Assembly: GCA_017539045.1 (NCBI GenBank)
Contig: JAFYHS010000020.1
Coordinates: 1 to 32,701, forward strand
Origin: Bacteroidales bacterium
GTDB taxonomy: Bacteria > Bacteroidota > Bacteroidia > Bacteroidales > F082
Length of the DNA stretch: 32,701 bases
Direction: 5' to 3'
The translations under genes were made by a program, and so were the position numbers. The notes beneath the pieces were generated by a model. It saw only the letters and a list, made by a program, of their open reading frames with translations. It ran no database searches and was not told the DNA's origin. Shown here piece after piece: positions 1,857 through 17,594 of this stretch (the stretch's first letter is position 1; each line of letters begins with the position of its first letter).

Positions 1857-2177
1857 ATGACACTAAGTAAAGATGAATTTAAGGTAATGGTGATGCTGTA
1901 TGCAGCAAATATCGACGGAAACGTCCAATCGGAAGAAGTGAAAGTGATGCTCAAGAAAACCGACTTCGAAACGGTGGACAAAGTCGAAAGCATGTTTGAC
2001 AAGATGAACGACGCCGAAGTCATTGAATGCATCCGAGAAAACAAACCCCTTTATGTCACCTCCGAAAGCGACCGCTTGGAAATCCTCGCTGACCTTTGTG
2101 CCATCATTGAAGCAGACGAAAATTGCACCGTGATGGAAGAATATATGGTTAGGTCGCTGAGAAGAATTCTTGAATAA
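1857..2177 (+). CDS. TerB-like small helical protein
   Basis: Encodes 106 aa with no signal peptide or membrane segment. The layout matches TerB-like helical bundles: an N-terminal helix ending in AANIDGNVQSEE (about residues 16-27) and a C-terminal acidic segment EADENCTVMEEYM near the end, the paired acidic motifs typical of that fold. TerB-like domains occur in tellurite-resistance and envelope-stress gene clusters, but the exact function here is unknown. It is the first gene of a closely spaced seven-gene run; the MscS-like gene starts 7 nt after its stop. Base composition is less GC-rich than in the DUF4301 gene before it. Assignment to TerB is by pattern and should be treated as moderate. 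Confidence 0.65.
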   Translation: MTLSKDEFKVMVMLYAANIDGNVQSEEVKVMLKKTDFETVDKVESMFDKMNDAEVIECIRENKPLYVTSESDRLEILADLCAIIEADENCTVMEEYMVRSLRRILE

Positions 2178-2184
2178 TACAAAT

Positions 2185-3252
2185 ATGGGTAATAAGAGTA
2201 GAAACTCCGAACCGAGAAGCTTGAATCTCCAAATTTGGCATAAGTCGATAATCTTGTTCACCCTTGTGCTTGCAGCGCTTCTGGTGCCATTATTCTTAGG
2301 GGAGTTCCCGACAATTATCGGCAAGCCTTGGTTCCAGATGTTGGTCGCGACCTTGGTCATGTGCCTTGTCGTCTCGATATGCACCAAATTGACTGACATC
2401 TTCTGCCTTCGCAGGAAAGAGAGCGGCATAACCTGGTGCCAAATCGCCATTCTCGTCGTAATCGGGTTGTGGGTCATTGGCCTGCTAGTCGTCTTCGACA
2501 TCAAGAAAGACTCACGCTATTTTTTGGCCATTGGAATTGTGGGCACCGTGCTCAGTTGGATTTTCCAAGAGACCTTGAAGGGCGTGGTAGCTTTCCTCCA
2601 TGTGCGACTGAACCATTTGCTTAGCATCGACGACTGGATCCAAGTGCCCAAATACAATGTGGATGGCGTGGTGAAACGCATCACGCTGACGACGGTCACC
2701 GTATACAACTGGGACACTACCACATCATCCATCCCCACCAGCGTGCTCCATTCCGACCATTTCATCAACTTACAAAAAATGGCCGAAGACAAGACCTTCG
2801 GCAGGTTGATGAAGAAGATATTCCTTCTCGATACCAGCCAGTTCCACCCCATCAATTCAGAGGAGGTGGAACGTCTGAAAAACAAGGAAGAACTCCAGCA
2901 TTACCTGCCCACGGAAGAGATTCATGAAGGTGCCATCAATGCAAACCTTTATAGGTTGTATATCTATCATTGGCTGATGAACGATCCCGTTGTCTCACAG
3001 ATGCCCCGTTTGATGGTAAGTTGGCAAGAGCAGAAAGAGGCTGGCATGCCTCTGCAAGTATATGTCCACGTCATGAAGGGCGGCTATTCCGCTTTCGAAT
3101 GGCACCAATCAAGGATCACGGAGCATATCGTTGAAGCCTTGGCATGGTTTGGACTGCGTCTATACCAGAGCCCGACAAGTCATGACGTCAGCAATTGCAT
3201 CAACCGCCTATCCAACATAGATGCAACCAACAGGAAGGAGGCCTTATCATGA
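2185..3252 (+). CDS. MscS-family mechanosensitive ion channel (YbdG/MscM type)
   Basis: Encodes 355 aa from the ATG at 2185. An in-frame TTG at 2170 would overlap the previous gene and is less likely. Hydrophobic segments lie at about residues 21-40, 48-67, 86-104 and 112-140. The last leads into the pore-lining MscS segment, with SWIFQETLKGVVAFLHVRL at 124-142. The beta domain follows, with VKRITLTTVTVYNWDTT at 163-179 and SSIPTSVLHSDHFIN at 181-195. This layout matches the YbdG/MscM branch of inner-membrane channels. The C-terminal cytosolic part extends to residue 355. Its stop overlaps the next start (ATGA). Some MscS-superfamily channels are gated by nucleotides; whether this one is cannot be seen. 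Its place beside RyR-domain genes suggests it is an effector, which is inference. Confidence 0.88.
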   Translation: MGNKSRNSEPRSLNLQIWHKSIILFTLVLAALLVPLFLGEFPTIIGKPWFQMLVATLVMCLVVSICTKLTDIFCLRRKESGITWCQIAILVVIGLWVIGLLVVFDIKKDSRYFLAIGIVGTVLSWIFQETLKGVVAFLHVRLNHLLSIDDWIQVPKYNVDGVVKRITLTTVTVYNWDTTTSSIPTSVLHSDHFINLQKMAEDKTFGRLMKKIFLLDTSQFHPINSEEVERLKNKEELQHYLPTEEIHEGAINANLYRLYIYHWLMNDPVVSQMPRLMVSWQEQKEAGMPLQVYVHVMKGGYSAFEWHQSRITEHIVEALAWFGLRLYQSPTSHDVSNCINRLSNIDATNRKEALS

Positions 3253-4361
3253 GCAATCTTATGTGCAAAGAAAAACCTTTTGAGTATTTGACTCGAAAAA
3301 ACGGCGACAAGTTTTCGGCCGATACAATCCATAATTGGTATGTCGCTAGAGCCTATGTACTTGAAAAACTAAAAGACGTCGTAATTGGACAAGGGTCGAA
3401 GCAAAGGCTTCAAGTGGTCATAACCAACGACAGCCCGTTGATGTTGAGCGTAGTCCGACAAGTGGCACTTTCGGCTCATTATGCCAATTTCGACGAGACG
3501 CATCAAAACGGGACCCTCATCACCATAGTGAGCAAGAACAAAGAAATCGTTGAAGAGCTGAAGAAAGAGGAATACCTATGCAACCTCCCCTCCTATTGCA
3601 AACTCTCAGTCAACGGTTCGGAACCGACGAATGCCAACACCTTCGCCGACATTGAGATTTGCGTGGTAGAAGAATGGAGCGGAAACGCTCCTGAGAGCGC
3701 CATCATCATGACGGAAGACGAGGTGAATTCCTTCCTCGGCACAAAAAAGGAGGATGACATCTTTTGCATCGACACCCGAAAAGCGGTCATGACCCATAGG
3801 ATGTATTCTTTGGGGTCGTGGATTGACAACCTACCCGCAGAAGACATCCACGACGCACAACGCTACGCCACGGCGCTCAACGTCTTTCAACGCACCCTCT
3901 TGAGAAAGCCTTTGACCCAATTAGTCGACGATAAGAAATGGACATCAGACTTGACTACGGTTAAAAACGCGCTGTCAAATGTGTATTGCGCCGACTGCTT
4001 TGAATCGAGGGCTGCTGGAGTGGCTCAATATGCCAAGACTCAAGGCATCACCGAAGAAGAAGCATGGGCGGAATGCGTGGAGGCCTTGTCAAAAAGCGAA
4101 CATTCACGTTGGGTGGTCGAAAAACTCATCATGGGCTTCCGACCCCTCAGCGAAAAAGAACGCATGGATATTGAGTGCTTGTTTGGCAAGGAGAGGATTC
4201 AATACCGCAACCAATTGAAGAAAAACGCCCAGGACCCCGTCCATGTCGACCTTTGTTCCTTCGCAAATCTGCGCCGCATCAACCCATTCGACATGAAATA
4301 CGACAGTTTTTTGATGTTGGCCATACCAGGAATTCTCGAAAGGCTGAATATTAACAAATAA
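3249..4361 (+). CDS. Rossmann-like domain plus C-terminal RyR-type domain protein
   Basis: Encodes 370 aa from the ATG at 3249, which overlaps the channel gene's stop by 4 nt. Residues about 52-140 alternate beta and alpha segments (LQVVITND, GTLITIVSKN, ADIEICVVEEW) and look like a Rossmann-type or TrkA-N/SLOG-like fold, but I see no GxGxxG loop. Residues about 275-365 carry an RyR-like pattern: EHSRWVVEKLIMGFRP at 284-299, then HVDLCSFANL at 332-341 and a YD pair at 351-352. These are the positions where RyR domains have NvHd.Wa..r..GW and hP.L..y.eL...yDr. No signal peptide or membrane segment is present. RyR domains in bacteria have been proposed to bind nucleotide-derived ligands. Probable role: cytosolic sensor or regulator for the neighbouring channel (inference). 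Confidence 0.65.
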   Translation: MSNLMCKEKPFEYLTRKNGDKFSADTIHNWYVARAYVLEKLKDVVIGQGSKQRLQVVITNDSPLMLSVVRQVALSAHYANFDETHQNGTLITIVSKNKEIVEELKKEEYLCNLPSYCKLSVNGSEPTNANTFADIEICVVEEWSGNAPESAIIMTEDEVNSFLGTKKEDDIFCIDTRKAVMTHRMYSLGSWIDNLPAEDIHDAQRYATALNVFQRTLLRKPLTQLVDDKKWTSDLTTVKNALSNVYCADCFESRAAGVAQYAKTQGITEEEAWAECVEALSKSEHSRWVVEKLIMGFRPLSEKERMDIECLFGKERIQYRNQLKKNAQDPVHVDLCSFANLRRINPFDMKYDSFLMLAIPGILERLNINK

Positions 4362-4374
4362 ACAACCTAATGGA

Positions 4375-4668
4375 ATGATCCCTCCTGATTATACGCCCCA
4401 GCCCATCGACACCTCCGACATCCAGCTTTCGGAAGAGTTGAAACAACTCATCGAGTTGATTGCCCGCAATGTACACGACACATGGGCACAAAGCCGCTTA
4501 AAAGAAGGTTGGACTTGGGGGCCAACCCTCGATGGTGAGTGCAAGCACCACCCTTGTCTCATCGAATATGACGAGCTGCCCGAGGCCGATAAGGACTATG
4601 ACCGCAACACCTCCATCGCGACCTTGAAGACCATCCTCAAACTAGGCTGGACCATCGAAAAGCAATAG
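4375..4668 (+). CDS. Stand-alone RyR domain protein
   Basis: Encodes 97 aa and consists almost entirely of a prokaryotic RyR (ryanodine receptor repeat) domain. Visible signatures are YTPQPIDTSDIQLSEEL at residues 6-22, NVHDTWAQSRLKEGWTWGP at 32-50, and HPCLIEYDELPEADKDYDR at 59-77, ending in LKTILKLGWTI. The length and motif order match stand-alone bacterial RyR proteins. No signal peptide, so it is cytosolic. It begins 13 nt after the previous gene, which has its own divergent RyR-like C-terminus, so two RyR modules sit side by side. The ligand of bacterial RyR domains is not known to me; nucleotide derivatives have been suggested from genome context. Confidence 0.93.
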   Translation: MIPPDYTPQPIDTSDIQLSEELKQLIELIARNVHDTWAQSRLKEGWTWGPTLDGECKHHPCLIEYDELPEADKDYDRNTSIATLKTILKLGWTIEKQ

Positions 4669-4688
4669 GAAGAACCCATCCATACGTT

Positions 4689-6626
4689 ATGAAGAGACCT
4701 CTACTTTCCTTAGTCCTCACATTGCTGTTTGGTCTTTCGGTATCAGCCCAAACCCAAGTGGGCTACGTAAAGACCAAAGGTCGCATGGAGAATGGCAAAC
4801 TGATCCCAGGGCAAGGCCTGAAAGGGGCAAGGGTCTCATTGCAGGGTCGCACTACCGTTTTGGTGAATTCGGAGAATGGAGCCTTCTCTTTCCCCACACC
4901 GAACCAGCAGTTCCAAATCGACTCGGTGAACAAAAAAGGTTATCAATTGGTCGACGCCACTTCTTGTCCGAGAAAATACGAGCAATCCTCCAATCCAATC
5001 TACATTGTGATGGAAACGCCCGAGCAGCAGCTTCGGGACAAGCTTTCGGCAGAGCGAAAAATCAGACGCAACCTGCAAAAGCAACTGCAAGAAAAAGAAG
5101 ACGAGATCGAAGCATTGAAAGCCCAACAGATAATTAGCGAAGAGGAATACCGGGCGAATCTGAAAAAACTCTACGAGGACCAAGAAAGCAACGAACGGCT
5201 CATTGCCGATATGGCAAAACGCTATTCAGAATTGGATTATGACCAGCTGGACGAGTTCTACCGCCAAGTGTCCTACTACATCGAGAACAGCGAATTGGTA
5301 AAAGCGGATTCTTTGCTGAACACCCGAGGCGATATTACAGAACAAGTGGCGAGCATCAAAAGGCGCGAGGGGGCCTTGCAGAAAGAGAAGGAACTACTAC
5401 AAACCGCCGAAGCCTTCCAGAAAGCGGAAATCGAGGAAGCCGCACGAAGGTGTTACAGTTACTATCAATCATTCAAGTCGAAGCATTTGAATGATACGGC
5501 TGCCTATTATTTGGAACTGAGGACAAGCCTTGATACGACTAACGCAGAATGGCTTGACGAAACAGCAGAGTTTGCTACAGGATATCTTGCCGATTATGGA
5601 AAAGCTATAGAACTCCTCAACAAAGCTCTGAAAATCAGGTTGTCTTCTCTTGGCATGAATAATCCTGCCGTTGCCACAAGCTACAGCAACATCGGCTATG
5701 TGTACAAAAACCTAGGTGACTATGAAAAGGCGATGGAATACAACGACAAGGCTTTGGAAATAAGAATGTCCGTGCTTGGCGAGAACCATCCCGACGTTGC
5801 CGTATGTTATAATAACCTAGGCACATTGTATGCCGACCGGGGCTACCTTGACAAGGCTTTGACATACTTTGAAAAGGCATTGGGAATCTGGAAGTCTGTC
5901 TATGGGGAGCATCATCCTGAAGTCGCAACAAGCTATAGCAATATCGGCGTGTTATACTCAAAACAAGGTAAAGATGAAAAGGCGCTGGAATACTATATGA
6001 AATCTTTAGGGATCAGACTGCCCCTCCTTGGCGAGAACCACCCCAACGTGGCTGTAAGCTACAACAACATCGGGTTTATATATGGAAAAAAAGGAGATTA
6101 TGAGAAGGCTTTAGAGTACTTCGAAAAAGCTTTAAGGATTAGATTGTCCCTCCTTGGCGAGAACCATCCCGACGTGGCTGTAAGCTACAACAATTTCGGC
6201 TTTGTATATGGCAAACAAGGCGACCTTGAGAAGGCTCTAGAAAACCATAACAAAGCCTTGAAAATCAGTTTATCGGTCTTTGGCGAGAATCATCCCGAGG
6301 TGGGTACCAATTATAACAACGTAGGAGTTATTTATTTTAAACAAGGCAACACAGAGAAGGCTTTGGAATACCTCAACAATGCTTTGAAAAACAAGTTATC
6401 CGTCTATGGCGAGAACCATCTCGAGGTGGCAACCAGCTACAATAACATCGGTGCTGTATACATGAATCAAGGTGATTACGATAATGCTTTGAAAGCCTTT
6501 AACAAGGCCTTGAATATCTATGAGTCCATCGCAGGCAAGAGACATCCGTTCACTGTCAGGCAAAAAGAGAGAATCGCCGAAATCCAAGCAAAAATGAAAG
6601 AGCAGGAAAATGAAACAAAAGAATGA
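4689..6626 (+). CDS. Exported TPR protein with carboxypeptidase-regulatory-like domain (paralog 1)
   Basis: Encodes 645 aa. A signal peptide ends near SVSA/QT (residues 20-21). Residues about 22-110 resemble a carboxypeptidase-regulatory-like beta-sandwich (GLKGARVSLQGR, GAFSFPT). Residues about 111-250 are charged and coiled-coil-like and include LIADMAKRYSELDYDQLDEF at 171-190. From about 321 to 614 there are seven consecutive 42-aa TPR units of the kinesin-light-chain type, each opening with a variant of LGENHPDVA and containing YNNIG and EKALEY. The product is probably periplasmic, with the TPRs as a protein-binding surface. It starts 20 nt after the RyR gene and overlaps the next, homologous gene by 17 nt. 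Its coding bases are less GC-rich than those of that paralog, and adjacent TPR units share long identical DNA stretches. Confidence 0.88.
   Translation: MKRPLLSLVLTLLFGLSVSAQTQVGYVKTKGRMENGKLIPGQGLKGARVSLQGRTTVLVNSENGAFSFPTPNQQFQIDSVNKKGYQLVDATSCPRKYEQSSNPIYIVMETPEQQLRDKLSAERKIRRNLQKQLQEKEDEIEALKAQQIISEEEYRANLKKLYEDQESNERLIADMAKRYSELDYDQLDEFYRQVSYYIENSELVKADSLLNTRGDITEQVASIKRREGALQKEKELLQTAEAFQKAEIEEAARRCYSYYQSFKSKHLNDTAAYYLELRTSLDTTNAEWLDETAEFATGYLADYGKAIELLNKALKIRLSSLGMNNPAVATSYSNIGYVYKNLGDYEKAMEYNDKALEIRMSVLGENHPDVAVCYNNLGTLYADRGYLDKALTYFEKALGIWKSVYGEHHPEVATSYSNIGVLYSKQGKDEKALEYYMKSLGIRLPLLGENHPNVAVSYNNIGFIYGKKGDYEKALEYFEKALRIRLSLLGENHPDVAVSYNNFGFVYGKQGDLEKALENHNKALKISLSVFGENHPEVGTNYNNVGVIYFKQGNTEKALEYLNNALKNKLSVYGENHLEVATSYNNIGAVYMNQGDYDNALKAFNKALNIYESIAGKRHPFTVRQKERIAEIQAKMKEQENETKE
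5651..6532 (+). repeat. Tandem 126-bp TPR-coding repeats (about seven units)
   Basis: Seven 42-codon units lie head to tail inside the TPR gene. Most are diverged in DNA, but two adjacent units, beginning around 6024 and 6150, share CTCCTTGGCGAGAACCA and GTGGCTGTAAGCTACAACAA at exactly 126 bp spacing. That points to recent duplication or local gene conversion. Unit boundaries are approximate. Confidence 0.75.
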
Positions 6627-8550
6627 CATAAAAAAACTGCTATTGCTCACAGCAACCATGCTGATGTGCGTTTGGGCCTCCGCCCAAACCCAACAGGGCT
6701 ACGTGAAGACCAAAGGTCGTATGGTGAAAGGCAAACTGGTGCCAGGCCAAGGCCTGAAAGGCGCCACGGTGTCGGTGCAAGGCCGTACCTCCGTGCTGGT
6801 CAATAGCGACGACGGAGCCTTCTCCTTCCCCGTCGCCGAGCCACAGTTCCGCTTGGACTCGGTAAGGAAGAAAGGCTACCAACTGGTCGACATGGACGCT
6901 TGCCCTAAGACTTACAAACGCTCAGGCAACCCGCTCTACATCGTCATGGAGACCCCTGAACAACAGCTCCAAGACAAGCTCAACGCAGAGAAGAAGATAC
7001 GCCGCAACCTACAGAAACAGCTGCAAGACAAGGAGGACGAGATAGAAGCCCTCAAGGAAGAGAACAAAATCACGCTGGAGGAATACCAGAAGTCGCTGCA
7101 GCAGCTCTATGCCGAGCAGGAAAGCAACGAACAGCTCATCGCCGACATGGCGAAACGCTACTCCGAGTTGGACTACGACCAGCTGGATGAATTCTACCGC
7201 CAGGTGTCATACTGCATCGAGAACGGCGAACTGGTGAAGGCCGACTCACTCCTCAACACCCGTGGCGACCTCAGCAAGCAGGTGGAGGAACAGCTGCAAA
7301 AAGGCCAAGCCATCAAGGCGCAAGAAGAACAACTGGGCAAAGCCAAGGCCGTCCATGCCGCCGACCAGGAAGAGCTGGCCCGCCGCTGCTATAGCTTCTA
7401 CGAGACCTTCGCCGCACAGCACATGAACGACACGGCCGCCTATTATCTGGAGCTCCGCGCCGCCTTGGACACAACGAGAATAGAATGGCAGAACGACGCT
7501 GGCACCTTCATCGACGACTACCTTGCCGACTACGACAAAGCCCTCTCCTATTACACTAGGATCTTGGGCATCTCCATGGCACAGCCCGAAATCAACACCA
7601 TGAATCTCATCTCCTCGCTCAACAACATCGGCTACATCCATGCTGAGTTGGGTGACTATGCGAACGCTTCACAATACTACCTCCAAGCCAAGGATATGTC
7701 AGAGGCCGCTTTGGGACACCTCCACCCCCAAACGGCCAACATCTATCTGAACCTGGGCTCCAACTACTCCGCCATGGGCGATTATGACAAAGCGCTGGAC
7801 TATACCAACAACGCCATCGAAATCTACGAACAGACCATGGACCCCAGCGATCCCATCTTGGCCTCCGCCTACAACAACCTAGGCCACTGCTATTCCGAGA
7901 AAGACGAGATAGAGAAGGCATTGGAATACTATTTCAAGTCCTTGGCCATCCGCGTCAAAGCCTATGGGGCAAAGCATCCCGAAGTTTCGTTGAGCTACAA
8001 CAACATAGGCTACTGCTATCTTCAGCTTCTCGATTACACCACTGGTTTGAATTACCTTGAAAAGTCATTGGGAATCAGTGAGGAGGTCCTTGGGAGCAGC
8101 CATCCTACTACGACCTATATGTACAACAACATAGGGTTTTTGTATACCCGTATCGGCGAAAACGAGAAGGGGCTCGAATACTATGAGAAAGCCTTGGAAG
8201 CAAGGAAAAAAGTATTGGGCGAAAACAACGACCATACCGCCGTTTGCTACGACAACATCGGCAATGTATACACTAAGATGGGCGAATACGACAAAGCCTT
8301 GGAAAACAACAGAAAGGCGCTCGAGATCCGTAAGAAGACCCTTGGCGAAGACCATCCCGACCTGGGTTATTCCTATTACAACATCGGCTTCGCCTACGCC
8401 AACCAAGGCAAATACATGGAAGCCCTCGAATATTACAACATGGCATATGAGCTGTTGAAGAAAGGCCTGGGCGAGGAACACAGCGACACGCAATACGCCA
8501 AGCAAAGCATAGAACAAATACAACAGAAGCTAAAAGAAGAGAAACAATGA
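6610..8550 (+). CDS. Exported TPR protein with carboxypeptidase-regulatory-like domain (paralog 2)
   Basis: Encodes 646 aa and has the same architecture as the preceding gene: signal peptide ending near WASA/QT (residues 25-26), carboxypeptidase-regulatory-like domain, charged coiled-coil-like region, and about seven to eight 42-aa TPR units in the C-terminal half. The N-terminal 210 residues are strongly conserved between the paralogs, including LIADMAKRYSELDYDQLDEF, while the TPR halves have diverged. That suggests a shared N-terminal partner and different TPR ligands. Codons here are mostly GC-ending, apart from a more AT-ending patch around 7990-8230. The start lies 17 nt inside the previous gene and the stop overlaps the TIR gene start by 4 nt, so translation is probably coupled. 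Probable location: periplasm. Confidence 0.88.
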   Translation: MKQKNDIKKLLLLTATMLMCVWASAQTQQGYVKTKGRMVKGKLVPGQGLKGATVSVQGRTSVLVNSDDGAFSFPVAEPQFRLDSVRKKGYQLVDMDACPKTYKRSGNPLYIVMETPEQQLQDKLNAEKKIRRNLQKQLQDKEDEIEALKEENKITLEEYQKSLQQLYAEQESNEQLIADMAKRYSELDYDQLDEFYRQVSYCIENGELVKADSLLNTRGDLSKQVEEQLQKGQAIKAQEEQLGKAKAVHAADQEELARRCYSFYETFAAQHMNDTAAYYLELRAALDTTRIEWQNDAGTFIDDYLADYDKALSYYTRILGISMAQPEINTMNLISSLNNIGYIHAELGDYANASQYYLQAKDMSEAALGHLHPQTANIYLNLGSNYSAMGDYDKALDYTNNAIEIYEQTMDPSDPILASAYNNLGHCYSEKDEIEKALEYYFKSLAIRVKAYGAKHPEVSLSYNNIGYCYLQLLDYTTGLNYLEKSLGISEEVLGSSHPTTTYMYNNIGFLYTRIGENEKGLEYYEKALEARKKVLGENNDHTAVCYDNIGNVYTKMGEYDKALENNRKALEIRKKTLGEDHPDLGYSYYNIGFAYANQGKYMEALEYYNMAYELLKKGLGEEHSDTQYAKQSIEQIQQKLKEEKQ

Positions 8551-9677
8551 ACCCACAGTTCAAATACTACGCCTTTATCAGCTACAATGCCAAAGACACG
8601 GCATGGGGTAAAAAACTACAGAAAAAGCTGGAGCACTACAAGTTGCCGACCCAACTTTGCAACGAGCACAACTGGCCAAGGAAACCCATCAAGCCCGTGT
8701 TCTTCGCCCCTACCGACATTCAGCCCGGAGGCCTCTCCAACGAGCTTCAAGAGCGGCTGAAAGCCTCAGAGCATCTCATTGTCATCTGTTCACCCAACTC
8801 GGCCAAGTCGGAATGGGTGGGGCGCGAGATAGAGTATTTCCACAGCCTCGGACGTCCCAACAACATCCATTTCTTTATCGTGGATGGCACGCCTCACAGC
8901 GGCGACCCGGAAACGGAATGCTTCAACCCCGTCATCGACAAGCTTGGGTTGCCTGAGATCCTCGGCGCCAACGTCAACGAGAAGATCTACCGCTGGCAAT
9001 GGCTCAATAGGGAACGCGCCTATGCACAGCTCGTGTCAAAGCTCCTCGGCGTGGAGTTCGACGCCATCTGGCAACGACACAAAAGGCAACTCATCCGAAA
9101 GATGGCTTTATGGGCCATAGGCATCATCGCCGTCATCGCCACCCTGCTTGGTGTGCGCAAAGCCAACCAACCCTTCGACGCCGAAATACGCCTGAGCGAA
9201 GCCTCCATCAACAACCCCATGCTGCCGCCTATCCAAGACGCCATAGTCACGCTGACCCTCGACAATGAAACGAAGAAAGACACCCTGTCGTCGCCCGACG
9301 CAGGCCTGACCTTCAAGAACATCCCCCACCGTTATCTCGACCAACCCATCCATATCACCGTGACCTGTAAGGACTTCCTTGACACTGACACCACCGCCAC
9401 CTTGACGAGAAACACGCTGCTGCAGATCAGACGCGACCCCTCAGTCTATGGCGACATCCATTTCAAACTATGGAACATCAACACCGAAGAGAGCGTCAAC
9501 TCCACCATAGTGAGCATCCAAGGACAGCAAGCACTCTCCGACACCAATGGCATGGTAAAGCTGATGATTCCTTTGGAAAAACAACGCAAGGCCTATAAAA
9601 TCGAAACCGAACTGAATCTGGTCAACGACTCCATCTTCATGCCTTGTGGCGAAGATGATGTGATTCTGGTGCAATGA
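8547..9677 (+). CDS. Membrane-anchored TIR domain protein with extracytoplasmic beta domains
   Basis: Encodes 376 aa. Residues 5 to about 170 form a TIR domain: box 1 YYAFISYNAKD at 7-17, VFFAPTDIQPGG at 51-62, LIVICSPNSAKSEWVGREIEYF at 77-98. E94 sits at the position of the catalytic glutamate of NAD-cleaving TIR enzymes (S-x-W-x-x-x-E pattern). A positively charged stretch (HKRQLIRK) leads into one membrane span at about 186-203, so the TIR side should be cytosolic. Residues about 206-376 look like one or two carboxypeptidase-regulatory/Ig-like beta domains on the periplasmic side, similar in style to the N-termini of the two TPR proteins. It overlaps the preceding TPR gene (ATGA) and ends the seven-gene run. 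TIR domains can make ADP-ribose-type signals or deplete NAD; which applies here is unknown. Confidence 0.88.
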   Translation: MNPQFKYYAFISYNAKDTAWGKKLQKKLEHYKLPTQLCNEHNWPRKPIKPVFFAPTDIQPGGLSNELQERLKASEHLIVICSPNSAKSEWVGREIEYFHSLGRPNNIHFFIVDGTPHSGDPETECFNPVIDKLGLPEILGANVNEKIYRWQWLNRERAYAQLVSKLLGVEFDAIWQRHKRQLIRKMALWAIGIIAVIATLLGVRKANQPFDAEIRLSEASINNPMLPPIQDAIVTLTLDNETKKDTLSSPDAGLTFKNIPHRYLDQPIHITVTCKDFLDTDTTATLTRNTLLQIRRDPSVYGDIHFKLWNINTEESVNSTIVSIQGQQALSDTNGMVKLMIPLEKQRKAYKIETELNLVNDSIFMPCGEDDVILVQ

Positions 9678-11558
9678 TCACCTTTCTTCCTTAAAACGTA
9701 CTATGGCATCGATAATCTCATCGTTATCGTCAGATATGGTGAGAATCATGTTCTTGAAGATGCCACGGTCGCTTAAGTCCTTAAGCAACGTATAGGCAGG
9801 CATATAGTGCGTGTAGTACTCCTTGCCCATGAAAATCATAGGGCTGGCATAGCCCACGCTCTCATAATGGTTCTGCCCAGCGTCTTGGAAGATCTCCTGC
9901 ATGGTACCCGCACTTCCTGGCGTATAGATGATGCCGCCCTTGGCGATGGTGACGATGCCGTCCTCACGCACGCTGTTATCGAAATACTTGGCGATGTCGG
10001 TGGCAAAAGGTGCTGTCGGCTCGTGACCATAATACCATGTCGGGATAGCCAAGCTACGGTATTCGGATTGCAATGGGAAGCGCTCCATCACCTCGAAGGA
10101 ACGACGCAGCCAACCTTCGTCTTTGTAGGTAGCCGAAGGAATGAGCATATCCACAGCCTCGTTCACCTCATCCTCGCTCCTACCCGCCATCCAAGACCCG
10201 AGATGCGTGGCTTCCATGGCTCCTGGGCCACCGCCTGTCACCATCAGCTTCCCCATTTCAGTGAGCTTCTTGCTCAAGAAGACAATCTGGCGATAGCCTG
10301 GCTCAGTACGACTTAAGGCATGGCCACCCATGATGCCGATGACATCCTTCTCGTCGTAAAGGCTCAGCATATTGTATAAGGCATGGCTGATGAAATGGTC
10401 GTGTAATGAGCGTGCCAAGGTCTCACGGACAGCATGGCCTTGTTTACCCTGGTCGATGTAATGCTTATACACCTTGGTATCATAACACGTCTCATAGGTC
10501 GAATCATCATGATAGTCATAGCCATTATATAGGACCTTGTACGTATATAGACCCTTTGGATAGGTTGAAAACGGCTTGCCTAGCTTAGGAATGAATAGGC
10601 TAAGGTCGTCCTTGCCCACCTCTTTCAGCACACGATTGACGATGCCAGCGGCGTCAAGCCCGAACTTGTGCATCAGCGCCGATGCCTGTCCCGACTCACC
10701 AAAGCAGTCGTCCATGCCGATTCGGTACACCCTGATCGGGTGGTTCTCACAGAAAAACTCGGCCACCGCACTACCCAAGCCACCCGCTATCTGATGCTCC
10801 TCAACGGTGAAAATCAAACGTGTGTCATCGGCGGCCTTTTTCAGCATCTCGCCATCCAACGGTTTGATGGTATGCATATTGATGACTCTTGTAGAGATAC
10901 CCATATGCTCAAGCATATGAGCGGCTTCGAGCGACTCCCACACCTCGTGTCCCGTAGCCACCAACGTGATGTCGGTGCCCTCACGCATCAGCTGGGCCTT
11001 TCCTATCTCAAAGTCTTGGTTCTCATCCGTGAAGTCAGGCACCGCCTCACGACCGAAACGGATGTAGACTGGGCCGTCACACTCGAGGATGGCTTTCTCT
11101 GTGGCAATCTTGGCCTGCGTGGCGTCACAAGGCGAGATGACCGTCATGTTAGGCAACACCCGCATGGTAGCAACGTCTTCCAACGCCTGATGCGTGGCTC
11201 CGTCGGGACCCACAGAAACGCCTGCATGGGCGCCACCGATGACAACGTGGACATTGTTGTAGCATACCGAGATACGAATCTGATCGTTGGCGCGATGCGC
11301 AGCAAACACGCCATAAGTGCTAAATACGGGCATCTTGCCACTCAGGGCCAGTCCTGCAGCCGTAGCCACGGCATCCTGTTCGGCAATGCCCATGGAGAAG
11401 AAACGCTCAGGAAATGCGTCAGCGAAGAGGTTCATCCCCACCGAGTTGGTGATGTCGGCCCCCATGCCAACCACCCTTTTGTCTTTCTGAGCCGCAGCAA
11501 GGACACCCTCGCCGAAGCCTGTCTTTGTGGCTTTGTTGCCTTTATTTGTATAGTTCAT
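9678..11558 (-). CDS. Transketolase C-terminal subunit fused to a LOG-type nucleotide 5'-monophosphate phosphoribohydrolase domain
   Basis: Encodes 626 aa in one uninterrupted frame. Residues 1 to about 315 are a transketolase C-terminal subunit, with GIAEQD at 57-62 (the catalytic glutamate loop that binds thiamine diphosphate), AHAGVSVGPDGATHQ at 110-124 and the usual C-terminal domain to GLDAAGIVNRVLKEV. Residues about 385-626 are a LOG/LDC-like Rossmann domain: GGHALSR at 411-417, VTGGGPGAMEA at 440-450 and PGSAGTMQEIF at 547-557, the counterpart of PGGxGTxxE with E555. LOG enzymes split nucleoside monophosphates into base and ribose 5-phosphate, and ribose 5-phosphate is a transketolase substrate. 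The linker is about 320-385. The gene overlaps the N-terminal subunit gene by 17 nt, and its stop directly abuts the stop of the convergent TIR gene. Confidence 0.88.
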   Translation of the reverse strand: MNYTNKGNKATKTGFGEGVLAAAQKDKRVVGMGADITNSVGMNLFADAFPERFFSMGIAEQDAVATAAGLALSGKMPVFSTYGVFAAHRANDQIRISVCYNNVHVVIGGAHAGVSVGPDGATHQALEDVATMRVLPNMTVISPCDATQAKIATEKAILECDGPVYIRFGREAVPDFTDENQDFEIGKAQLMREGTDITLVATGHEVWESLEAAHMLEHMGISTRVINMHTIKPLDGEMLKKAADDTRLIFTVEEHQIAGGLGSAVAEFFCENHPIRVYRIGMDDCFGESGQASALMHKFGLDAAGIVNRVLKEVGKDDLSLFIPKLGKPFSTYPKGLYTYKVLYNGYDYHDDSTYETCYDTKVYKHYIDQGKQGHAVRETLARSLHDHFISHALYNMLSLYDEKDVIGIMGGHALSRTEPGYRQIVFLSKKLTEMGKLMVTGGGPGAMEATHLGSWMAGRSEDEVNEAVDMLIPSATYKDEGWLRRSFEVMERFPLQSEYRSLAIPTWYYGHEPTAPFATDIAKYFDNSVREDGIVTIAKGGIIYTPGSAGTMQEIFQDAGQNHYESVGYASPMIFMGKEYYTHYMPAYTLLKDLSDRGIFKNMILTISDDNDEIIDAIVRFKEER

Positions 11559-12351
11559 TCAAAAACTCCTTTACTTGTTCTTTGCTCGGCACCTTCCCAT
11601 GCCATTGGTTGTTGTCTTCGATGCTCTTCACGCCCTTACCCATGATGGTATCGGCAATGATGACGGTAGGCTTGCTTTTCTCTTGGTCGGCCATGTCAAG
11701 GGCCATCTTGATTTGTCCCATATCGTGACCGTCAATCTCTATCGTATGCCACCCGAAAGCGGCCCATTTGTCGCGCAAGGGATCGATGGCCATCACCTTC
11801 TCGGTGCCGCCATCAATCTGCAAACGGTTGCGGTCGATGATGACACAGAGGTTGTCGACCAGATGGTGAGCCGCCGCCATAGCCGTCTCCCACACACTTC
11901 CCTCCTGCTGCTCGCCATCACCCATGATGCAGAACACACGATTAGACTTGCCGTCCATCTTGGCCGACAAAGCCATGCCCAACGCTACGCCAATCCCTTG
12001 TCCTAAGCTGCCCGAGCAAGTCTCCAAACCAGGCAGGCAGAACACATAACTCGGATGCCCTTGCAAGCGGCTTCCCAACTTACGCAGCGTCAGCATCTCC
12101 TCTTCCGGGAAATAGCCTGCCGCCGCCAAGGTGGCATATAAAACGGGAGCCGTATGCCCTATGGAAAGCACCACCTTATCGCGGTCCTCCCAATCGGGGT
12201 GCTTGGGGTCGTGACGCATATGGTTGAAATACAAAACGGTGAAGATGTCCGCCAAATCGAGGGAGCCGCCCGTATGTCCCGAGCCAGCCTCCGCCAAGGC
12301 GGTCAATATCAATTCGCGGATATGCCGCGCTTTTGCTTCCAAATCTATCAT
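11542..12351 (-). CDS. Transketolase N-terminal subunit
   Basis: Encodes 269 aa, the usual length for the N-terminal half of a split transketolase. It carries GSGHTGGSL at residues 23-31, SIGHTAP at 63-69 and the thiamine-diphosphate motif that starts GDGEQQEGS at 144-152 and ends in IDRNRLQ at 172-178. It should pair with the C-terminal half encoded by the next gene to form one active transketolase of the non-oxidative pentose phosphate pathway. Start and stop both overlap neighbouring genes: 4 nt with the DUF456 gene and 17 nt with the C-terminal subunit, which indicates one transcript with coupled translation. Cytosolic. Confidence 0.93.
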   Translation of the reverse strand: MIDLEAKARHIRELILTALAEAGSGHTGGSLDLADIFTVLYFNHMRHDPKHPDWEDRDKVVLSIGHTAPVLYATLAAAGYFPEEEMLTLRKLGSRLQGHPSYVFCLPGLETCSGSLGQGIGVALGMALSAKMDGKSNRVFCIMGDGEQQEGSVWETAMAAAHHLVDNLCVIIDRNRLQIDGGTEKVMAIDPLRDKWAAFGWHTIEIDGHDMGQIKMALDMADQEKSKPTVIIADTIMGKGVKSIEDNNQWHGKVPSKEQVKEFLNELYK

Positions 12352-15953: not shown

Positions 15954-17594
15954 TTATTCCACCACCACCCTATCCACCTGCTGTTGTCCATCCACATGGG
16001 TCACCAAAGTGTAAACGCCATGGCTCAGACCTTGCGTGGAAATGACAAAAGCTTGGGTTGTAGCCGCATTGGAATAGACCTGTCTGCCCGTCATGTCATA
16101 CAACTTAACTGAAGCCTCACAAGGCTCAGCAAAACGGATGTTGATACGGTCTTTGGCAGGGTTCGGGAAGACTTCAACCATTCGAGCCGGCTCTTCGACA
16201 GGCTCAGGTTCCTCGATGCCCCAAGTGCCACAGCCTGCATTGATTTCACCGTCCAAATAGTTGAAGCGGTTGTCCAACCAGTCGCGCATATAGTCCAATT
16301 GGCTTTCGTCGACGCTAAAAGCAGGCCATGCCTCATGCTCGCGCTCGTAGGCACCGCTTTCCACCAAGGCTTCGAATTGGTTTTGGACCATCTCCATGAT
16401 ATGCTCCGTGGTCAGGATGTCGTTACGCAAGGCGTTGTATCTGTCTTTCGCCAAAGCCACAAAGCCATTGTCGTAGCAGTCCTGCGTCAAACGGTCGTAG
16501 AAGCCGTTGCTCTTCAAACCCGCCGTGTTGTTGGTATGACTACCATCGGTGTCCAAACCCCAGATGGCATCCAGATCCCAAGGCAGGTACATATAGGTGC
16601 TCGACTTCTTGTAACGGGCCAAAAACAGGTTGCGGCCCATATTGTCCATGGCCATAATGCTATTGATAAACAAATAGTAATCAATGGCATTGGCTTGGTC
16701 AAACTGCGCGGAATACTGCGAATAGAACACATTGTCGGAGGCATTCATCACAAAGTTGGTGAAATTGTAAAGATGGCTCCAGTTGATGGCCGTGTCGCTC
16801 TCGTTGGGATAAACCCATTCGTAGTTGTCCCAAGTGTCAAGCGTATTGTCGAAACCGGGCAGGCTATCGAACGTTGGAGCACCAGGGCCATTGCCTTTAT
16901 AGAGCAGTCCCCTCAATTCGCCATTGTATTTGCGCAGCCCGAGTTGTTTGCGGTCCATACGCTCCGTCAAGGCATAAACGCCCATATACTCGTCATTGAT
17001 GAACACATCGGCATAGACCATACGAATGCCTGGCAAGGCATCGGGTTCGTTCTCGGCATAAGGCAGTTGGTACATCTCCATCCACAACTCGTTGGCCACC
17101 TTGTCGCGTAGGCGAAGCGGTTGTGCCCACATGGCCTCAAGGTTCCAGTCGTCGTCGCTACGAAGTCCAAGGAAGGTGGTATCAGCCATCTCGACACCCG
17201 TCTCGTCGGCCCAAAGCTCCACACGATAGGATTTCTTGTCGTATTGCTGCGACGAGGTGCCACGGATCTTGAATCCAGCGTGCATCGTAACGACATTGCC
17301 ATCGGCATCTGCCACATTGATAATGCCATGCACAGCAGGCGAGTTGACGATCGGGCCATCGGTGGTGATGGTAATCAAAGGCATCTCGCTACGATAATAA
17401 GTATAGGTTTCTCCTCTGACTTCCAAAGTCTTTTTGTCTGTCTTCTCCAACGACCTTCCAGTAGACACGACAAGTTTTTTCTCGTGGTCAATGCCAAACC
17501 TATTCTTGGCCGTTTGCATATCCTGAGCCAATATCGATCCCGAGAAAAGCCCCAGGAGCATCGCCATAACGAATCTTCTCAAATCCTTTTTCAT
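15954..17594 (-). CDS. Secreted CotH kinase family protein with T9SS C-terminal domain
   Basis: Encodes 546 aa. A signal peptide ends near GSILA (about residue 23). The middle is a CotH-kinase domain: FKIRGTSSQQYDKKSYRVE, an ERMDRKQLGL segment and PWDLDAIWG, the counterpart of the CotH metal-binding PWDxDxxfG motif. The last 77 or so residues, from MVEVFPNPAKDRINI to the end, are a type A T9SS sorting domain, so the product should cross the outer membrane and be attached to the surface or released. CotH kinases phosphorylate proteins in spore coats and in bacterial effectors; a substrate here is unknown. It begins 1 nt after the relA-like gene and is likely co-transcribed. A 16-nt stretch identical to the REP-like core lies in the proline/glutamate-rich linker (16193-16208). 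Confidence 0.9.
   Translation of the reverse strand: MKKDLRRFVMAMLLGLFSGSILAQDMQTAKNRFGIDHEKKLVVSTGRSLEKTDKKTLEVRGETYTYYRSEMPLITITTDGPIVNSPAVHGIINVADADGNVVTMHAGFKIRGTSSQQYDKKSYRVELWADETGVEMADTTFLGLRSDDDWNLEAMWAQPLRLRDKVANELWMEMYQLPYAENEPDALPGIRMVYADVFINDEYMGVYALTERMDRKQLGLRKYNGELRGLLYKGNGPGAPTFDSLPGFDNTLDTWDNYEWVYPNESDTAINWSHLYNFTNFVMNASDNVFYSQYSAQFDQANAIDYYLFINSIMAMDNMGRNLFLARYKKSSTYMYLPWDLDAIWGLDTDGSHTNNTAGLKSNGFYDRLTQDCYDNGFVALAKDRYNALRNDILTTEHIMEMVQNQFEALVESGAYEREHEAWPAFSVDESQLDYMRDWLDNRFNYLDGEINAGCGTWGIEEPEPVEEPARMVEVFPNPAKDRINIRFAEPCEASVKLYDMTGRQVYSNAATTQAFVISTQGLSHGVYTLVTHVDGQQQVDRVVVE
16193..16208. repeat. Second copy of the REP-like core
   Basis: CTTCGACAGGCTCAGG here is identical over 16 bases to the core of the element at 15098-15119. 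It lacks the flanking CC and GG that complete the outer palindrome, and in the CotH gene it encodes part of a Glu/Pro linker. It could be a decayed copy or chance under codon constraint. Confidence 0.4.

Follow-up and report, generated by a model that had tools for sequence, protein, structure and literature searches.

Organization of the seven-gene unit

A candidate signaling operon of seven genes, in which a TIR-domain protein is encoded together with RyR domains and an MscS-type channel, is found in the genome of a Bacteroidales bacterium (G000; 2.36 Mb, 43 contigs, 81% complete). The window analyzed here is the whole stretch of 32,701 nucleotides from contig JAFYHS010000020.1 of assembly GCA_017539045.1, and the unit lies at 1857..9677 on the + strand. 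Successive genes are separated by +7, -4, +13, +20, -17, and -4 nucleotides. These coordinates confirm a first-pass annotation, made from the sequence alone, which had described seven genes on one strand with gaps of -17 to +20 and three overlaps. On the 5' side are two tRNA-Leu genes and a DUF4301 gene (300-1811). On the 3' side a transketolase-type gene (9678-11558, - strand) abuts the TIR stop codon.

Gene 1 (1857..2177, +; 106 amino acids) opens the cassette and encodes a TerB-like protein (Pfam TerB, 8.1e-5). Its earlier label of TerB stands as a near miss, 23.3 bits being slightly under the Pfam cut-off of 24.4; the copy in the congener G599, described below, scores 25.2 bits and the copy in G606 has no TerB match. 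The labels given to genes 2 and 4 to 7 are upheld by Pfam. Gene 2 (P0002; 2185..3252, +; 355 amino acids, ATG start) belongs to the MscS family, with the MscS beta domain PF00924 found at 1.2e-8 (35.4 bits, cut-off 20.2). It has three hydrophobic segments in a simple hydropathy scan and, by eye, a stretch resembling a pore helix, and a PDB sequence search gives weak matches to YnaI and MSL1-type proteins. Gene 3 (P0003; 3249..4361, +; 370 amino acids) carries an RCK/TrkA-like Rossmann domain and a divergent RyR domain. Gene 4 (P0004; 4375..4668, +; 97 amino acids) is a stand-alone RyR domain (PF02026, 3e-34, 117.6 bits, cut-off 27.4) and has a solved relative, 3nrt. Gene 5 (4689..6626, +; 645 amino acids; TPR_12, 1.8e-107) and gene 6 (P0006; 6610..8550, +; 646 amino acids; TPR_12, 3.7e-67) encode TPR arrays and are tandem paralogues with 52% identity. 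Both look exported, with leaders like signal peptides that were read by eye and lie below the threshold of the hydropathy scan. Gene 7 (P0007; 8547..9677, +; 376 amino acids) encodes the TIR protein, with a membrane segment and a C-terminal tail. PADLOC gives no match for genes 1-4 at 0.1.

The unit is read here, with slightly better than even confidence, as a modular TIR/RyR-channel signaling operon: an envelope-linked TIR protein would make an ADP-ribose signal, and RyR domains would read it and gate a channel.

A putative RCK-plus-RyR subunit

Residues 46-365 of gene 3 align to the C-terminal half of a family denoted here as RCK-channel-RyR (hhalign probability 98.9, E 3.7e-17). Members of this family are about 660-840 amino acids long and have N-terminal membrane segments (identified by eye), RCK-type domains, and a C-terminal RyR-like domain. 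In gene 3 the RCK/TrkA-like Rossmann domain covers approximately residues 46-200 and the divergent RyR domain approximately 268-365. A hidden Markov model (HMM) seeded with 16 other C-terminal RyR domains, none from the gene-3 family, scores 35.2 bits on residues 268-365, while the maximum in shuffles is 8.7 bits (1,992 of 2,000 shuffles scored). Gene 3 is thus placed in the RyR family, and the second RyR domain proposed by the first-pass annotation holds. A wider RyR HMM (30 seeds) gives 29.6 bits, compared with at most 6.7 bits in 2,000 shuffles. Among the channels, Pfam finds TrkA_N together with RyR in two related members (L091 and L092) and Slo-like_RCK above cut-off in two others (L016 and L115), and the RCK channels have a weak profile match to DMI1 (7vm8; E 0.034). 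In a tree with the channel family, the relatives of gene 3 cluster together on a long branch; the tree does not give the direction of origin.

Because gene 3 aligns to the C-terminal channel half and matches the RyR HMM, we infer that it encodes an RCK-plus-RyR subunit without the pore half, which would gate a channel. The MscS protein, whose gene overlaps gene 3 by four bases, may supply the pore in trans.

Replacement of the channel genes in congeners

In the congener G599 (L115) the same interval between DUF4301 and transketolase contains DUF4301, TerB, RCK-channel-RyR, three TPR genes, TIR, and transketolase. A single RCK-channel-RyR gene of 720 amino acids takes the place of window positions 2154..4742, where no blastn match of 80 bp or longer is found between the two genomes. 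Both flanks match (94% over 193-2153, 89% over 5662-11539), and weaker TPR matches begin at 4743. TerB is 82% identical, the last TPR protein is 97% identical to P0006, and the TIR protein is 96% identical. The MscS trio (MscS, RCK/RyR, and RyR) and the RCK channel thus share one position next to an almost identical TIR, which is the strongest sign here that the two may do equivalent work.

Other congeners show the site in different states. G600 has DUF4301, TerB, RyR, and another RCK-channel-RyR gene, followed by the contig end. In G603 (L118) the unit is missing, and the end of DUF4301 and window position 9686 are only 21 bases apart. This site has been altered in more than one way, since the transketolase part further on (window 10581-12346) is also missing. 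Ten congener regions were compared in all. The unit or its RCK version is at the site in two of them (L115 and L116), and L119 and L120 have RCK-channel-RyR plus TPR genes, or TerB plus RyR genes, a few kb away. Neither version is seen in L117, L118, L121, L122, L123, and the short L124.

Ligand-site residues of the RyR domains

According to the available part of a 2026 preprint (PMC13232231), phage proteins with an RyR domain (PF02026) bind 2' and 3' cyclic ADP-ribose (2'cADPR and 3'cADPR). One of them, RyDEP, binds and cleaves both through H75, W78, H100, and D117. While RyDEP degrades the signal, its homologues sequester it; six of eight phage homologues tested bound and none of the eight cleaved. 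The same part leaves the binding of cADPR-type signals at the animal RyR domain to future studies.

H34, W37, H59, and D76 of P0004 correspond to these four residues of RyDEP with a constant offset of 41. All four are invariant in small RyR domains (14/14, and 16/16 in a larger set) and are kept in 18 of the 23 channel-type RyR domains. The five misses are other residues in L066 and L074 and gaps in L013, L014, and L116, the last of which is cut by a contig end. Gene-3 proteins keep the four residues in 8 of 9 cases by hmmalign and in 9 of 9 in a MAFFT alignment. The single exception reflects a gap that hmmalign introduced, and D352 is invariant in the MAFFT alignment.

The same residues allow a different role for the RyR proteins. 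They might form an off-switch that degrades or soaks up the TIR signal to limit self-damage, the TIR protein itself being a toxic NADase and the channel an accessory. P0004 is small and stands alone, it keeps the H/D dyad, and viral contigs carry RyR domains 52-58% identical to it, all of which would suit such a role, as would the degradation and sequestration reported in the available part of PMC13232231. However, many relatives fuse RyR to an RCK-channel-type protein, which fits a reader better, and the channel and its RyR domain are exchanged as one cassette. We regard the off-switch as rather unlikely for the unit as a whole, and P0004 could be an off-switch beside a gene 3 reader. Glycosidase or sponge activity of P0004 on 2'/3'cADPR is not deducible from the residues present.

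Several other arrangements of RyR domains were seen. The P0004-like RyR domains of viral contigs are in L125-L128, four of nine loci among the matches listed. In L127 the next + strand open reading frame (ORF) is an isochorismatase-family gene, which recalls the NAD-synthesis setting of RyDEP. In G606 (L120:9466-10649) a TerB-like gene adjoins a gene for a 283-amino-acid protein with a C-terminal RyR domain (8.6e-37), whose N-terminus has no Pfam match and by eye resembles nucleoside-processing enzymes. Proteins of about 900 amino acids with two RyR domains are found in L074 (6169-8859; ATPase-like region by eye) and are frequent in the genus g207. L069:8887-13908 contains a SIR2 and TIR fusion and an nSTAND NTPase after a small RyR gene.

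The TIR protein

Both TIR_2 (5.3e-11) and ThsB_TIR (3.9e-9) are found in P0007 above the Pfam cut-offs. Matches to the PADLOC ThsB models are of partial length, and a PDB sequence search gives weak Toll-like receptor (TLR) matches. The glutamate noted earlier at the catalytic position is E94, and all nine aligned sequences have it. From its sequence P0007 is likely an NAD-consuming signal enzyme. The TIR domain (1-181) is followed by one hydrophobic segment (182-206), preceded by basic residues, and then by the C-terminal tail. This layout probably places the TIR domain in the cytosol and the tail in the periplasm, the expected location of the exported-looking TPR proteins. The tail is perhaps an interchangeable envelope-sensor module.

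The tail of P0007 also occurs behind other N-termini, namely a non-TIR domain in L064:5086-6171 and L078:7841-8932 and a peptidase-like region (by eye) in L080:849-2372. These three loci also hold TPR-matching genes. In G107 a gene beside TPR and RyR genes likewise has this tail on a different N-terminus.

Linkage of RyR and TIR genes

In a first sample of 198 genomes of the order, RyR is found in 16 and TIR_2 in 76. TIR_2 is present in 13 of the 16 RyR genomes, compared with 6.1 expected, and lies within 5 kb of RyR in at least seven (G000, G020, G022, G028, G120, G146, and G176; 0.09 expected). G003, in which RyR and TIR are on separate contigs, is not counted. An enlarged sample of the order has RyR in 37 of 393 genomes. 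In 12 of the 21 new RyR genomes TIR_2 is within 5 kb (0.23 expected). Combined, this gives at least 19 of 37 RyR genomes, or at least 17 of 35 without G000 and G612, the latter very probably the genome of L023.

A phylum sample has RyR in 27 of 395 genomes and was not pooled because 20 of the 27 belong to one genus, g207. Without G000 (n = 26), TIR_2 is within 5 kb in G199, G210, G231, and G413. In these four genomes TIR directly adjoins RCK-channel-RyR, and the TIR frame of G231 holds a stop. In G286 TIR_2 is 6.4 kb from an RyR match below cut-off, and G293 has none. Outside these counts, a TIR gene converges on an RCK-channel-RyR gene in G111.

Gene 3 itself has matches in 9 of the 198 genomes, of full length only in the source genome of the window, G000, and in G003. 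G003 has the same gene order up to a contig end inside the second TPR gene, and another of its contigs starts with TPR, TPR, and TIR (73% identical). This is compatible with a single operon without proving it. A scan of the collection for gene 3 gave eight loci, all in Bacteroidales or Bacteroidia metagenome-assembled genomes (MAGs), six of them named RUG, which we take to mean rumen uncultured genome. MscS is directly upstream in all eight; an RyR gene is next in three, and TPR genes adjoin in three. Two of the loci also have TIR on their contig, and one has TerB. Homologues of gene 1 adjoin RyR-bearing or RCK-channel genes in L115, L116, and L120 and precede the same cassette in L023. Given this recurrence, a chance presence of TerB in the window was rejected, though L024-L030 have no such homologue. 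In G120 (L017) the order is RCK-channel-RyR, RyR, TIR (58%), TPR, and TPR. Of the earlier expectation that the genes are conserved together, the recurrence in other Bacteroidales MAGs stands. A fixed seven-gene system was considered and is rejected, since the genes occur as modules across loci.

Proposed pathway and alternatives

In the proposed pathway, an event at the envelope would be sensed in the periplasm by the TPR proteins together with the tail of P0007. In the cytosol, the TIR domain would use NAD+ to make an isomer of cyclic ADP-ribose or a similar ADP-ribose signal, which would be bound by the RyR domains in genes 3 and 4. Gene 3 would then open or close the channel whose pore is the MscS protein in trans, and the changed ion flux may halt the cell or an infecting phage. 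The pathway builds directly on gene content and order, domain identities, ligand-site residues, the channel replacement at the same site, and RyR-TIR linkage; we infer localization, NAD+ chemistry, signal, binding, gating, and the anti-phage role. The first-pass annotation had proposed a similar TIR-RyR-channel model. Its core is strengthened by RyR-TIR neighbors far above simple background, a cADPR-type site in both RyR domains, and a channel tied to RyR, and its fixed seven-gene form is given up.

A wider proposal, for which we would put the chance a little under even, is a prokaryotic cADPR-RyR axis across Bacteroidota. Cyclic ADP-ribose isomers made by TIR would gate channels through RyR domains, and the channel, either RCK-channel-RyR or MscS with a split RCK-RyR subunit, would serve a TIR immune operon as an interchangeable effector cassette. 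If true, this would bring a class of ligand-gated ion channels into TIR signaling. Host PF02026 proteins would gain a role as readers of ADP-ribose signals, and a small bacterial system would be available for a direct test of cyclic ADP-ribose sensing by RyR domains. The channel replacement between congeners offers ready-made matched pairs for experiment.

Several observations weigh against the signaling operon. The first group concerns the RyR calls. Gene 3 has nothing above any Pfam cut-off, and Pfam's own RyR model fails there. The same model is below cut-off in the channels of L017, L012, L014, L016, and L018 and in the larger L013 protein, and has no match at 0.01 in the L115 channel. The RyR call in gene 3 and several channel members therefore comes from our own HMMs and alignments. 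By profile comparison alone, small RyR domains match gene 3 weakly (E 0.28) and channel RyR domains at E 3.1e-4. The AlphaFold2 model of P0003 is poor (mean predicted local distance difference test score 51.1), with a Rossmann-like N-terminus. With this poor model as query, no RCK entry is among the 50 structure-library matches listed, and a PDB sequence search for gene 3 gives nothing convincing. Ligand-site positions are substituted in the two channel RyR domains named above, and retention of these residues is expected within the RyR family and cannot separate binding from cleavage.

The second group concerns linkage. The enrichment null assumes an even background and independent genomes; clustered defense loci break this assumption and would raise the true background. 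In none of the 20 g207 genomes, whose RyR proteins are of AAA-RyR-RyR type, is TIR_2 within 5 kb. L024 has TIR and no separate RyR gene. Four of the eight gene-3 loci (L026-L029) have only MscS and gene 3, directly before transketolase, with no adjoining RyR, TPR, or TIR gene; a TPR-matching ORF in L026 is on the other strand, beyond DUF4301. Three of these four genomes (G593-G595, completeness not given) are without a P0007-like TIR. Such loci would be expected if two neighboring units share no pathway, MscS and gene 3 (with or without RyR) being an osmotic or nucleotide-sensing channel and TPR plus TIR a separate NADase system. G592, the genome of L026, does have TIR flanked by TPR genes elsewhere in the genome, as this alternative would predict. 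Against it are the overlapping genes of the window, the order of G003, which is the same as far as its contig extends, the RyR-TIR linkage in at least 19 of the 37 RyR genomes of the order, and the direct TIR adjacency in four genomes beyond the order sample. We consider two separate units unlikely.

The third point is the site itself. The first-pass annotation had suggested a search near known defense islands, and none is found among ten neighboring genes scanned with Pfam. The eight genes with matches are of housekeeping type instead: DUF4301, transketolase (two genes), DUF456, CotH, RelA/SpoT, polysaccharide synthesis, and Wzz. A fixed chromosomal site of this kind, together with an MscS channel and exported-looking TPR proteins, could mean that this pathway from TIR to RyR channel works in envelope or osmotic homeostasis and not in defense. 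Nevertheless, the unit is patchy in its occurrence, is missing from one site, and has a cassette replaced between closely related species, all of which resembles accessory immune loci, and RyR relatives are on viral contigs. A purely homeostatic role seems very unlikely to us, and an immune role is kept in the proposed signaling operon.

Comparison with known systems

The unit is similar to Thoeris in that a TIR gene is beside an effector that would read an ADP-ribose signal, and P0007 qualifies as a TIR-domain ThsB. It differs in that genes 1-6 include neither a SIR2-SLOG nor a macro ThsA, the two ThsA kinds compared. The proposed reader is instead an RyR domain tied to a channel, and the TIR protein is membrane-anchored with exported-looking TPR partners. 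From its sequence the unit is Thoeris-like in outline. It is kept apart from Thoeris because a ThsA of the two kinds compared is missing and activity is only predicted. G603, which has no unit, also carries the neighboring LOG-like part (9678-11558, on the opposite strand).

The available part of PMC13232231 describes PF02026 proteins with the same ligand or catalytic residues in RyDEP and other phage RyR proteins. Here, however, the proteins are host-encoded, in an operon with TIR and a channel, and are proposed readers and not agents of evasion. Animal ryanodine receptors likewise have the RyR repeat domain in a channel-tied protein, but no pore homology is seen. RCK/TrkA-gated channels, including the CASTOR/POLLUX/DMI1 type, resemble the channel relatives in their RCK/TrkA_N domains, whereas here RyR is C-terminal and the proposed pore in the window, of MscS type, is encoded separately. 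The TerB-like first gene recalls the Ter (tellurite/stress) system, but Pfam finds no other Ter family in the seven genes. In a literature search RyR domains were joined to TIR signaling from the phage side only (PMC13232231, in the part available), and the available parts of PMC7016017, PMC8195603, PMC9503650, and PMC7159879 describe no bacterial RyR-TIR system. PMC8295901, which also mentions both Thoeris and ryanodine, concerns axon degeneration. There is a chance that an RyR-gated channel effector is a new class.

Other features of the locus

The product of 9678-11558 (- strand) has 626 amino acids, with the transketolase C-terminal half up to residue 306 by Pfam. Its last ~320 amino acids have no Pfam match at 1e-5 and are presumably LOG-like, judging from a PGxxGTxxE motif. 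The two parts also occur apart: L026-L029 have the transketolase part only (315 amino acids), and L118 keeps the LOG-like part with the transketolase gone. Further downstream, 15954-17594 (- strand) encodes a CotH kinase with a Por secretion-system sorting tail.

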